Shown here in pieces: positions 3,403 through 56,650 of a DNA stretch of 64,000 nucleotides. This DNA comes from Hymenobacter negativus. Lineage in GTDB: Bacteria; Bacteroidota; Bacteroidia; Cytophagales; Hymenobacteraceae. Each line of letters begins with the position of its first letter. Position 1 is the first letter of the stretch. Position numbers and translations under genes: made by a program. The stretch spans positions 372,001-436,000 of the forward strand of contig NZ_JAGETZ010000004.1 in the NCBI RefSeq assembly GCF_017571495.1, given 5' to 3'. The notes beneath the pieces were generated by a model. It was not told where the DNA came from and did no database searches. It saw nothing but the letters and a program-made list of their open reading frames with translations.

Positions 3403-4104
3403 ATGACCCAACTTTTCTTTTCTGATTACGAAATCGAAGCCGCCGAAACCCTGGTGCCGCTGGTGATTTTTGGGGCCGGCGGCCTGGGCCGGGAAGTGCT
3501 GCTGCTGCTCCAGCAAATCAACGCCAACCGCCCCACCTGGGATGTGCGCGGCTTCTACGACGACCAGGCCCCGGCCTCCCCTGCTGTGGCTGGCCTCCCC
3601 TACCTCGGCACCAGCGCCGACCTCAACGCCCACCCCGAGCCGCTGGCGGTGGCCCTGGCTGTGGGCAGCCCCGCCGGCCGCGCCGCCGTGGCGGGACGGC
3701 TTACATCAGCTCAACTCAGCTTTCCCAGCCTCGTGCATCCGCGGGTGGCACTGGCCCGCCAGCACCGCATTGCGCTGGGCGAGGGCTGCATCATCCAGCA
3801 GGGCTGCATCCTTACCTGCGACATTACCCTGGGCCGCTTCGTGCTGCTCAATCTGGGTTGCACAGTGGGCCACGATGCCGTGCTGGCCGACTTCTGCTCC
3901 CTTATGCCCCATGCCAACGTGAGCGGTACGGCGCGACTGGAAACCGGCGTGTACCTGGGCACCAGCGCCACTATTATCCAGGGCGTCAGCATTGGGGCGC
4001 ATGCTATTGTGGGTGCCGGGGCGGTGGTGGTCCGCGACCTGCCGGCGAATGTGACCGCCGTGGGCGTACCGGCGAAGGAGTTAAGAGTGAGGAATGCAGA
4101 ATGA
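3403..4104 (+). CDS. PglD/NeuD-like sugar O/N-acetyltransferase (left-handed beta helix)
   Basis: A 233-residue two-domain enzyme. The N-terminal Rossmann-like domain carries VIFGAGGLGREV (21-32) and binds the nucleotide sugar. The C-terminal half is a hexapeptide-repeat beta helix (about 115-230) that binds acetyl-CoA, with the probable catalytic base H157 in CTVGHDAVLADF and the closing VRDLPANVTAVGVPAKE. Lying between a sugar transferase and a DegT aminotransferase, it probably N-acetylates an amino sugar (as in bacillosamine synthesis). The last residues and stop are encoded inside a GAATGAA-type intergenic repeat, so the C-terminal tail VRNAE is probably not native to the enzyme. Confidence 0.88.
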   Translation: MTQLFFSDYEIEAAETLVPLVIFGAGGLGREVLLLLQQINANRPTWDVRGFYDDQAPASPAVAGLPYLGTSADLNAHPEPLAVALAVGSPAGRAAVAGRLTSAQLSFPSLVHPRVALARQHRIALGEGCIIQQGCILTCDITLGRFVLLNLGCTVGHDAVLADFCSLMPHANVSGTARLETGVYLGTSATIIQGVSIGAHAIVGAGAVVVRDLPANVTAVGVPAKELRVRNAE

Positions 4105-4200
4105 AGAATTCGCAACTGTCAATTCCTCCTTATTCACTATGTAGGCAAGGAATGAAGAATTTTCAACGGCTCATTCTTCGTTTCTCATTCTTCATTCCTC
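4084..4200. repeat. GAATGAA-type low-complexity repeat with inverted ends
   Basis: GAGGAATG with AGAATGAAG (from about 4091) is mirrored by CATTCTTCATTCCTC (ending near 4200), and further copies (GGAATGAAGAAT near 4149, CTCATTCTTC near 4172) lie between. The left end overlaps the end of the acetyltransferase gene. It resembles the short tandem repeats common in Bacteroidota and cyanobacterial spacers. Confidence 0.55.
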
Positions 4201-54232: not shown

Positions 54233-56650
54233 ATGAGCAAGCGGCATTGGGTACGGAATGGAATTGGCATAGCCTGCGGGCTGCTGCTGGTTTTTGTCCT
54301 CGACCGCCTCTTCCCCCTGCCGCCGGCGCCGCGCTACTCCCCCATCGTGCTGGCGGCTGATGGCACCGTGCTTCACGCCTTCTTGAACCCCACTCAGAAA
54401 TGGCGCATGAAAACGGAGCTGGCCGAAATCACGCCCGCTTTACAGCAGGCCATCATCAATAAAGAGGACCGATACTTCCGCTACCATTTTGGGGTGAACC
54501 CGGTGGCAATAATGCAGGCCGCCGGGCGCAATCTGTTTGGCAAGGGACGCACCACCGGGGCCAGCACCATCACCATGCAGGTGGCCCGATTGCTGGAGCC
54601 CAAGGAGCGCACCTTCGGCAATAAGCTCAAGGAAATGCTGCGCGCCATGCAGCTGGAAGCGCACTACAGCAAGGCCGAAATTCTGCAGCTTTACTTGAAC
54701 CTGGTGCCCTACGGCAGCAATATCGAAGGCGTGAAGTCGGCCGCGCTGCTCTATTTCCAACAGCCCCCCGACTACCTCTCGCTGGCCCAGACCGTGACGC
54801 TGGCCATCATCCCGAACCAGCCCCGCGTGCTGGTGCTGGGCAAAAACAACGACCGTATTCTGGCCGAGCGCAACCGCTGGCTGCGGCAGTTTCAGCAGCA
54901 GCACCTGTTCCCCGACCAGGACATTGAAGACGCGGTGAACGAGCCGCTGGACGTGCAGCGCCACGCCGCCCCCACACTGGCGCCGCACCTGGCACGGCGG
55001 CTCGTGACGCAGTTTCCTGGTCAGCCCATCATCAGTTCTACGCTACGCCGCGCCCCACAGGCCAAAGCCGAGGATTTGACTAAAAACTACGTGCGCCGCC
55101 TGCACGAACTGGGCATTTCGCAGGCCGCTGTGCTGGTCGTGAACAACCGCACCCGCGCCGTGGAAGCTTATGTGGGCTCCGCCGATTTTCAGGATGCGGC
55201 CAGCAGCGGGCAGGTTGATGGCGTGCGCGCCGTACGCTCGCCGGGCAGCACGCTCAAACCCTTCCTCTACGCCCTGGCTGTGGACCGCGGCATCGTAACG
55301 CCCAAGCTGAAGCTGCCCGACGTGCCCACCAATTTCAGCGGCTTCCACCCCGAGAATTTCGACAAAACCTACGCCGGCGAAGTGACCGTGGAGCGCGCCC
55401 TCACCTATTCGCTCAACATCCCTGCCGTGCGCGTGCTGGCCGAAGTTGGCGTGCCCACTCTCACCGACAAGCTGCGGCAGGCCGGCTTCAAAAGCGTGGC
55501 CAAAGCCGCCCCGCTGCTAGGCCTCAGCACCGTTCTGGGCGGCTGCGGGGCGACGCTGGAGGAACTGATGGGCCTGTACGCGGCGCTGGCAGACGGCGGG
55601 CGGTACCGGGGGTTACGGCTTACCTCACTACCTGCCGGAACCTCACCCTCGACCCCTCTCCAAAAGAGAGGGGAGCCTGACGATTCAACTCCGCGCAAAA
55701 CCGGTGTCCCCTCTCTTTTGAATAGGGGGGCAGGAGATGAAATTCCCGCCGGAACGCCCCTCATCTCCCCCGCCGCTGCCTTCCTCATCACTGACATCCT
55801 GGCTCAGCGCACCCGCCCTGACCTGCCGATGGGCTACCAGAACAGCCGCCACCTGCCCAAAATTGCCTGGAAAACCGGCACCAGCTATGGCCGACGCGAT
55901 GCCTGGAGCATTGGCTACAACCAGGATTACACCATTGGCGTGTGGGTGGGTAATTTCAGTGGGCAGGGCAGCCCGTCCCTGACCGGCGCCGACGTGGCTT
56001 CGCCCCTGCTCTTCGACCTGTTCAACGCCCTGGCTTACAACTCCCCCAACAACTGGGCTGTGCCGCCCGCCACGCTGGACTTCCGGCTGGTCTGCGCCGA
56101 AACCGGCCTTGTGCCCGGCGAGCATTGCCCCAACCAACTGATTGACTACTACCTGCCGGGCGTGTCGACGGCGCGGCACTGCGAGCATCAGAAAGAAACG
56201 CTGGTATCGGGCGATGGGGCCATTTCCTACTGCCGGGCCTGCGTGCCGGCAATGGGCTTTCGGCGGCAGCTGTTCCCCAATCCACTGCCGGAAGTGCTGG
56301 CGTTTCGGGAGGCTCAGGGGCTGCCGTCCAGCCGCCTGCCGCCGCACAACCCCGCCTGCCAGTTGGTGCGCACGTCCAACGACGGCGCGGGCGCGGCCCT
56401 GGCCATCACCTCTCCGCTCGACCATGCCGAATACGTGCTCGACCGCAAGGAGAAGCAACAAATGCTGCTCACCTGCGCGGCCGGCAGCGAAGTGCGCCAA
56501 GTATTCTGGTACGTGAACGACCAGTTTTTGCGGGCCGCAGCGGCTACCGAGCGGGTATTTTTTTGGCCGCCCAGCGGCACGGTGAAAATATCCTGCGCCG
56601 ACGACCACGGGCGCAATGTGGACATTCAGCTGCAAGTGGCTGAATTGTAG
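54233..56650 (+). CDS. pbpC: Penicillin-binding protein 1C with in-frame repeat insertion
   Basis: An 805-residue bifunctional class A PBP. Signal-anchor at residues about 8-26, glycosyltransferase domain (about 55-215) with NKEDRYFRYHFGVNP and RTTGASTITMQVARLLEPKERT, then a transpeptidase domain with nucleophile S339 in SPGSTLKPFLYAL, an SLN-type motif (YSLNIPAVRVLAEVG) and KTGTSYGRRDAW. The C-terminal BiPBP_C-like region closes the protein. Residues about 468-505 are a 38-residue proline/charged insertion encoded by a palindromic repeat and bounded by the repeated coding GCCGGAAC (PAGT...PAGT). The insertion lies between the SLN-type and KTG motifs. With the upstream alpha-2-macroglobulin gene it makes the known YfhM-PBP1C pair. 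Confidence 0.93.
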   Translation: MSKRHWVRNGIGIACGLLLVFVLDRLFPLPPAPRYSPIVLAADGTVLHAFLNPTQKWRMKTELAEITPALQQAIINKEDRYFRYHFGVNPVAIMQAAGRNLFGKGRTTGASTITMQVARLLEPKERTFGNKLKEMLRAMQLEAHYSKAEILQLYLNLVPYGSNIEGVKSAALLYFQQPPDYLSLAQTVTLAIIPNQPRVLVLGKNNDRILAERNRWLRQFQQQHLFPDQDIEDAVNEPLDVQRHAAPTLAPHLARRLVTQFPGQPIISSTLRRAPQAKAEDLTKNYVRRLHELGISQAAVLVVNNRTRAVEAYVGSADFQDAASSGQVDGVRAVRSPGSTLKPFLYALAVDRGIVTPKLKLPDVPTNFSGFHPENFDKTYAGEVTVERALTYSLNIPAVRVLAEVGVPTLTDKLRQAGFKSVAKAAPLLGLSTVLGGCGATLEELMGLYAALADGGRYRGLRLTSLPAGTSPSTPLQKRGEPDDSTPRKTGVPSLLNRGAGDEIPAGTPLISPAAAFLITDILAQRTRPDLPMGYQNSRHLPKIAWKTGTSYGRRDAWSIGYNQDYTIGVWVGNFSGQGSPSLTGADVASPLLFDLFNALAYNSPNNWAVPPATLDFRLVCAETGLVPGEHCPNQLIDYYLPGVSTARHCEHQKETLVSGDGAISYCRACVPAMGFRRQLFPNPLPEVLAFREAQGLPSSRLPPHNPACQLVRTSNDGAGAALAITSPLDHAEYVLDRKEKQQMLLTCAAGSEVRQVFWYVNDQFLRAAAATERVFFWPPSGTVKISCADDHGRNVDIQLQVAEL
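55634..55755 (+). repeat. Palindromic repeat element inserted in frame in pbpC
   Basis: An element of 106 bp between direct repeats GCCGGAAC (55634-55641 and 55748-55755), 114 bp period. Its inner arms CAAAAGAGAGGGGA (55661-55674) and TCCCCTCTCTTTTG (55707-55720) are exact reverse complements, and CCCCTCTC/GAGAGGGG (55653-55673) forms a smaller hairpin. The type CCCCTCTC-AAA-GAGAGGGG is a common bacterial intergenic repeat. 114 is a multiple of three, so the frame is kept. Confidence 0.8.

Follow-up and report, generated by a model that had tools for sequence, protein, structure and literature searches.

An in-frame palindromic element in pbpC of Hymenobacter negativus, at a loop occupied recurrently across the genus, and its possible link to a DUF559 nuclease

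The window, the whole 64,000-nucleotide stretch of Hymenobacter negativus DNA that was analysed, includes pbpC, whose product is named penicillin-binding protein 1C (PBP1C) by TIGR02073 (709 bits against a cut-off of 494). Within this gene lies a palindromic element, here called family A, in which a spacer separates two inverted arms and each arm is itself a hairpin (Table 1). The arm CCCCTCTCCAAAAGAGAGGGG at 55653-55673 belongs to a longer imperfect inverted pair (55653-55674 and 55707-55728) that is 91% complementary over 22 nt. The reading frame of pbpC stays open across the whole element, as the sequence-only reading had claimed when it described an in-frame insertion. In an AlphaFold2 model of PBP1C (mean pLDDT 76.4, pTM 0.65, 33 sequences), residues 468-504 are the longest stretch with pLDDT below 50, the next being the 10 residues 712-721, and this low pLDDT suggests that residues 468-504 are disordered. 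The insert is thus read as a loop of about 37 residues, probably disordered, between the SLN and KTGT motifs of the transpeptidase domain.

Table 1. Features of pbpC and its linker in the window, and repeat families found at the same linker in relatives
Feature	Position	Strand	Description
pbpC	54233-56650	+	805-aa open frame encoding penicillin-binding protein 1C
PBP1C domains			GT51, residues 44-219; transpeptidase, residues 299-573; BiPBP_C, residues 716-799
Variable linker, residues 461-508	55613-55756	+	flanked by conserved LYAALADGGRYRG and PLISPAAAFL
Family A palindromic element	about 55639-55744		ends set by eye, via other copies
Left arm hairpin CCCCTCTC-CAAAA-GAGAGGGG	55653-55673		
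Right arm	55707-55728		imperfect reverse complement of the left arm
Left GCCGGAAC	55634-55641	+	overlaps the first bases of the family A element
Right GCCGGAAC	55748-55755	+	
Family B			AATGAAGAATTAAGAATGAGGAATT-like inverted repeat
Family C			CCCAATACC-like inverted repeat
Family D			AACCCCAAGC palindrome

The window has a single match to the family A hairpin pattern, and none of 100 shuffles has any. Genome-wide the pattern has 69 matches, with none for a reversed-pattern control, which bears out the earlier proposal of a dispersed palindrome, and the hairpin is present in 113 of 120 genus genomes. A comparison with Rfam returned two matches, both far under the gathering scores. Coding context was scored for a subset of the copies in this genome, comprising 49 distinct places, and only three of these are well-supported coding copies, namely those in pbpC, pnkp and hen1; at three places in the same genome (L396, L399 and L403) no open coding frame was found. 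Among 20 complete copies, at least one of the six frames is open in 18. The core lengths of these copies, counted from CTCACC to GGTGAG, fall into all three classes modulo 3 (remainder 0 in seven, 1 in nine and 2 in four), and therefore the element does not secure the frame by itself. Selection is likely to be what keeps it.

Two copies of GCCGGAAC are found in pbpC exactly where the sequence-only reading had placed them, 114 bp apart, but its interpretation of them as a target duplication did not hold. Other copies of the element carry the end sequences RACCTCACC...GGTGAGGTY, and judged by these ends the left GCCGGAAC reaches into the start of the element itself. In the 20 complete family A copies of this genome, including those of pnkp and hen1, a direct repeat of at least 3 bp abutting the element ends was found in none. 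Within 20-nt flanks, direct repeats of 5 bp occur at 8 of the 20 copies against a permuted mean of 5.7 and repeats of 6 bp at 2 against 1.3, so that from 6 bp upwards they do not exceed the permuted pairs; 8-bp flanking repeats, for which the sequence-only reading had proposed a check at other copies, are seen at none. Inverted extensions of at least 4 bp, reaching at most 16 bp, are present in 6 of the 20 (permuted mean 1.9, p 0.009). Family A is thus without target duplication, and the states before and after a single insertion event, which the pbpC copy had been thought to display, cannot be read off it.

The pbpC gene is encoded by 118 of the 120 genus genomes, and its linker was measured in 117, G036 being left out because the right part is off the same contig. 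Linkers were classed by aligning them locally to an arm consensus, with 100 dinucleotide shuffles for comparison; one (L125, likely a 39-nt false positive) was set by hand to the class without an element. Of the 117 linkers, 48 were assigned to family A, 22 to B, 3 to C, 2 to D and 36 to no element, with 6 unclear. The genomes that were classed are also those that supplied the consensus, and calls as short as 36-69 nt represent remnants at best. An element is therefore present in 75 of the 117, with insert lengths of 36-210 nt. Families A, B and C have no evident sequence in common, and in close relatives this linker bears A or B elements; the close sisters L025 and L027 have the same insert. 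Because relatives hold different, unrelated palindromes there, the loop appears to act as a bay in which repeated DNA can park. The element-free linkers are most often 39 nt long, both in the genus and among outgroups, and a length of 36-42 nt, seen in 22 of the 36 genus linkers that have no element and in 9 of the 15 from outgroups, is likely to be the ancestral state. That homologues lack exactly 38 residues, which the sequence-only reading would have taken as the sign of a recent insertion, is not supported: 36 of 117 are element-free and 75 carry an insert, many of them of another family. By the criterion of that reading the outcome is mixed, since the site is shared and the sequence mostly is not.

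The supply of elements in each genome is reflected in what its pbpC holds. Family B has matches in 72 of the 120 genomes and family C in 15. The latter is abundant only in G061, with 59 matches including 3 in pbpC, and in G127, with 14; the third genome with C in pbpC, G126, has a single family C match, and G104 has seven at one place. Family D was found by pattern in the pbpC of G135 only, so that its dispersal is without support. The median count of A is 35 in genomes with A in pbpC versus 8.5 in those with no element there, and that of B is 7.5 in genomes with B in pbpC versus 1 (each p <1e-4, uncorrected for kinship). The pbpC inserts track local supply, in a comparison where kinship makes the genomes non-independent and the copy in pbpC adds to its own genome's count. 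The window also contains a family B-type inverted repeat at about 4089-4200 (GAGGAATGCAGAATGAAGAATT ... CATTCTTCATTCCTC).

The number of arrivals was estimated on a quick tree built from the pbpC flanks without the linker, which has many weak forks (46 of its 129 inner branches starred and 42 open). For the 82 firmly assigned rows (A 42, B 15, C 3, D 2, no element 20) parsimony gave 23 changes, and for all rows minus the 6 unclear ones 39 changes were needed. When a loss was charged at only 0.05, the cheapest history comprised one arrival of A, seven of B, two of C and one of D, that is, at least 11 arrivals even though loss was almost free. Family A lies in all three registers in pbpC (21, 5 and 3 of the 29 scorable among 39). 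The linker length is a multiple of three in 114 of 117 genus members, and the earlier suggestion that the insert is tolerated within the protein was right. Two of the three exceptions, L039 (G029) and L101 (G108), carry one and the same B insert, 116 nt long and containing a stop, and also share an identical TGA 25 codons past QKW in the GT51 part of pbpC. The pbpC of L101 is also broken by two inverted IS-like copies that are 99% alike over 734 nt. The third exception is L134 (G140), where bases in a C or G run may have been miscalled.

Two further proteins exhibit the same behaviour. The other coding copies of this genome are in Pnkp (TIGR04075) and Hen1 (TIGR04074), whose genes are about 6 kb apart. 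Pnkp was found in 96 genus genomes and its linker was read in 95, the match in G111 being without that part. The linker is short in 51 of the 95 (27-51 nt, mostly LGVRVTAPA-like) and filled in 44, of which 28 hold family A, 11 a loose family E pattern (GTAGAGACGCGA...), including one (L333) that resembles family F, and 5 other inserts, of which two belong to family F and two show no clear repeat. All but three of the 44 filled linkers are in frame. The three exceptions (L342, L393 and L394, in pnkp of G123, G019 and G005) are out-of-frame A inserts, which may reflect a broken gene, frameshifting or sequencing errors in C/G runs. In the pnkp linker of G061 (L311), a palindrome AAATGCGCATCAAGCATTT appears by eye to be nested inside the right arm of A. 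Hen1 was likewise found in 96 genomes; in the 30 where its linker was read, by-eye assignment gave 15 of family A, 7 of family G (GTGGACTCTGCGAGTCC...) and 8 of neither, and all 30 lengths are multiples of three. Thus, all three linkers with coding copies hold several families in relatives, and multi-family recurrence is a property of all three loops. Further candidate hosts, each seen once, are a PurM-like protein (L273), EgtB (L279), an alpha/beta hydrolase (L261) and a glycosyltransferase-like protein (L291).

These observations bear on three simpler or different histories of the loops. A single recent insertion of the palindrome into the pbpC of this lineage, with an 8-bp target duplication, would fit the two GCCGGAAC copies 114 bp apart and the element-free homologues that are without a stretch of such length; it is nonetheless very improbable, given that none of the 20 complete copies has a target duplication, that the linker is occupied by A or B elements in close relatives as well, and that the flanking GCCGGC stretches of L020 look by eye like an inverted repeat. 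Alternatively, one insertion in an ancestor of the genus may have been reshaped later by divergence, by deletions and by gene conversion from other copies. A single origin of A does suffice in the parsimony with cheap loss, and sisters such as L025 and L027 carry the same insert, but this history demands 10 replacements by other families, when A, B and C have no evident sequence in common, and would have to accommodate the 39-nt length commonest in element-free genus members and outgroups alike as well as the three registers of A, though later indels could shift a register; we consider it unlikely. It is about as improbable that the loops are favoured rather than merely tolerated, a disordered insert rich in proline and charge altering the activity of PBP1C, Pnkp or Hen1 and being selected for it. 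The reuse of the same loop in three proteins, when just 3 of the 49 A places scored in this genome are well-supported coding cases, would be expected under such selection, yet insert length and sequence vary freely (36-210 nt in pbpC) and many genomes have no insert. Presumably, the loops are used because they tolerate inserts.

The identity of the mover is a separate question. The RAYT (TnpA-REP) transposases would be a natural choice if the palindromes were REPINs, as inverted hairpin pairs without target duplication fit that system, RAYT-like genes are present in 49 of the 120 genomes, families E and F start with GTAG, and at L431 E-type motifs adjoin the RAYT gene. In the 30 RAYT loci examined (of 63 matches), however, no A hairpin lies within 300 nt, whereas by the same method 25 have another hairpin and 5 have none. 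At one of these loci (L429) two CTCACCCC words lie outside any hairpin, and the two genomes rich in family C, G061 and G127, have no RAYT match. RAYT is therefore an unlikely mover of A, and the chance that it moves these palindromes in general seems slight; families E and F may be moved by it. The sole RAYT-like gene found in this genome (G000:C37:56408-56935; L069, L411) is flanked by GC-rich hairpins of the GCGGGCC/GGCCCGC type, a different repeat family.

A different candidate came from spaced family A arms, about 450-525 bp apart, that were noticed in genus genomes. Of five such pairs named beforehand, four (L471-L474) have DUF559, L471 and L472 being one site in two related genomes, and one (L476) does not. 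In this genome a DUF559 frame is flanked by A arms at L475 (G000:C3:119771-120900), and two more DUF559 genes (L479 and L483) have arms that are related by eye. All seven DUF559 genes in the Hymenobacter loci examined match PF04480 and adjoin A or A-like arms, the loci having come from stretches selected for A arms; the plasmid sample described below is the only unselected one. A single tblastn query found no DUF559 in 1.39 Mb of loci not selected for A, and G000 has 69 palindromes versus one DUF559 place among the stretches examined. In L473 the arm-DUF559-arm unit lies in frame within a UvrD-type helicase, where DUF559 occupies 226-331 and has UvrD segments on both sides. At L471 and L472 the unit forms an in-frame fusion with a glutamine amidotransferase. 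The DUF559 frame of L475 continues without a stop through the A arm into recQ. A possible coding copy of A, L014, proved to be the A arm that separates a DUF559 frame from recQ and for this reason was left out of the docking loops.

Beyond the genus, tblastn found DUF559 in 42 records of a plasmid collection, of which 25 from other phyla were taken with repeats disregarded; the 17 left out comprised further Azospirillum and Sinorhizobium, E. coli and pathogens. Strong inverted repeats, defined by a flank-to-flank score of at least 20 (a limit fixed after the first 16 records), surround 14 of the 25 genes, 11 among the first 16 records but only 3 among the later 9, and are missing at the other 11. 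None was found around 22 small genes hand-picked from four of the same plasmids, in 2000 random windows on those plasmids, or in 1000 in the window analysed here. The contrast with the small genes (14 of 25 against 0 of 22) has a Fisher p of 1.4e-5, which is too optimistic, with several records from one species. Several of the plasmid units, from Cyanobacteria, Deinococcus and Alphaproteobacteria, have arms that are hairpins of a CCCCTCTCCC...GGGAGAGGGG-like type. On two Sphingomonas plasmids the DUF559 gene lies in an operon, with sufB and sufC on either side in one (L499) and between two transhydrogenase genes in the other (L513), and on a Pseudanabaena plasmid (L503) the unit with its inverted repeats is within one annotated 4.9-kb coding sequence. 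No DUF559 was confirmed in viral contigs, and phage records gave three distant matches. DUF559 is associated with hairpin arms.

Sixteen columns of the aligned DUF559 set are invariant, among them E41, D69, H86 and D95. Searched against the PDB, its profile matches 3hrl (endonuclease-like, 2.5e-35) and 3r3p (a mobile intron protein, 1.3e-5), the latter being of the EDxHD type. In PMC12907096 a DUF559 protein is grouped with the PD-(D/E)XK, Vsr-like enzymes. From the shared arms, family A may be the gene-less form of the arm-DUF559-arm element, and DUF559 would be the candidate mover of family A; it cannot account for families B to G. Empty sites have no clear similarity to the A terminus, and a homing target was not found by that comparison: at the median pbpC site without an element, 82% of the gene's other windows match the A terminus at least as well, the value for pnkp being 40%.

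Overall, the best explanation, to which we give a probability of about 0.66, is that family A entered pbpC in frame at a recurrent docking loop, and that A derives from an element made of a DUF559 gene between two hairpin arms. A gene-less palindrome of family A would have entered the coding sequence in frame, at a site that appears to have been entered repeatedly, mostly by inverted-repeat families common in the lineage concerned, and from the pattern of lengths the frame-breaking copies appear to have been purged by purifying selection. The loops of Pnkp and Hen1 seem to behave like that of pbpC. The A copies may be non-autonomous forms of a compact element, hairpin arm-DUF559 nuclease gene-hairpin arm, and the nuclease, a relative of the mobile-intron protein, may promote copying into chosen sites without target duplication. 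For families B to G in the same loops, the simplest view would be loop tolerance together with a high element load. A wider proposal is more tentative, and we would put it at somewhat less than an even chance: DUF559 nucleases may drive mobile elements of a widespread and so far undescribed class, in which the nuclease gene lies between hairpin arms, and may copy a large population of gene-less palindromes, the one in pbpC included, into chosen sites, translated copies persisting as loops or as complete inserted nuclease domains (as in L473), with the pbpC, pnkp and hen1 loops among the preferred sites. Selfish palindromes that supply and replace the same loop of a housekeeping enzyme amount to a natural experiment in insertion tolerance with many replicates. 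To our knowledge no mover of such very common bacterial palindromes has been identified; the results point to a candidate nuclease, and the question of the mover becomes directly testable.

Translated palindromes are known as a kind, from PMC2229807, PMC10969869 and PMC3733652. Multi-family docking at such a scale and the link to DUF559 appear to be new, as neither was found in the literature searched; the papers found to mention DUF559 together with palindromes appeared, from titles and abstract openings, to be unrelated. The Rickettsia palindromic elements (RPE) and their Wolbachia counterparts are described in PMC2229807 and PMC10969869 as palindromes of ~105-150 bp lying in frame in conserved proteins. 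Family A likewise is a palindrome translated in frame inside a conserved protein, has many dispersed copies and is missing from some homologues, and the likeness to the Rickettsia elements proposed from sequence alone is upheld. The two differ, by description and not by sequence comparison, in that several unrelated families occupy one loop across the genus here, and in the candidate partner gene DUF559, none being mentioned for RPE in the accessible text of those two papers.

The intragenic REPs of the GTAG and CGTC families, according to PMC3733652, are hairpin dimers that lie within coding sequences, frequently those of repair genes, and encode 20-30 residues, or 43-82 in clusters; in recB of two Xanthomonas species different REPs occupy about the same site. 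Family A differs from these in having by eye neither the GTAG nor the CGTC tag at its ends and in not adjoining the RAYT genes examined, and the recurrence seen here extends over dozens of genomes and three proteins. With REPINs and their RAYT it shares the inverted hairpin pair and the lack of target duplication, but A hairpins lie within 300 nt of none of 30 RAYT loci. Homing endonuclease elements are similar in that the DUF559 profile matches 3r3p (1.3e-5) and fixed sites in conserved genes are reused; in contrast, family A involves no intron or intein, its DNA is translated and stays in frame, its bounds are hairpin arms, and a target was not found. Finally, the MITEs of classical transposases are also short and non-coding with terminal inverted repeats, from which family A is set apart by the absence of target duplication in all 20 copies, and no classical transposase whose ends match was noticed; its arms also occur on DUF559-bearing units, which may represent the autonomous form.
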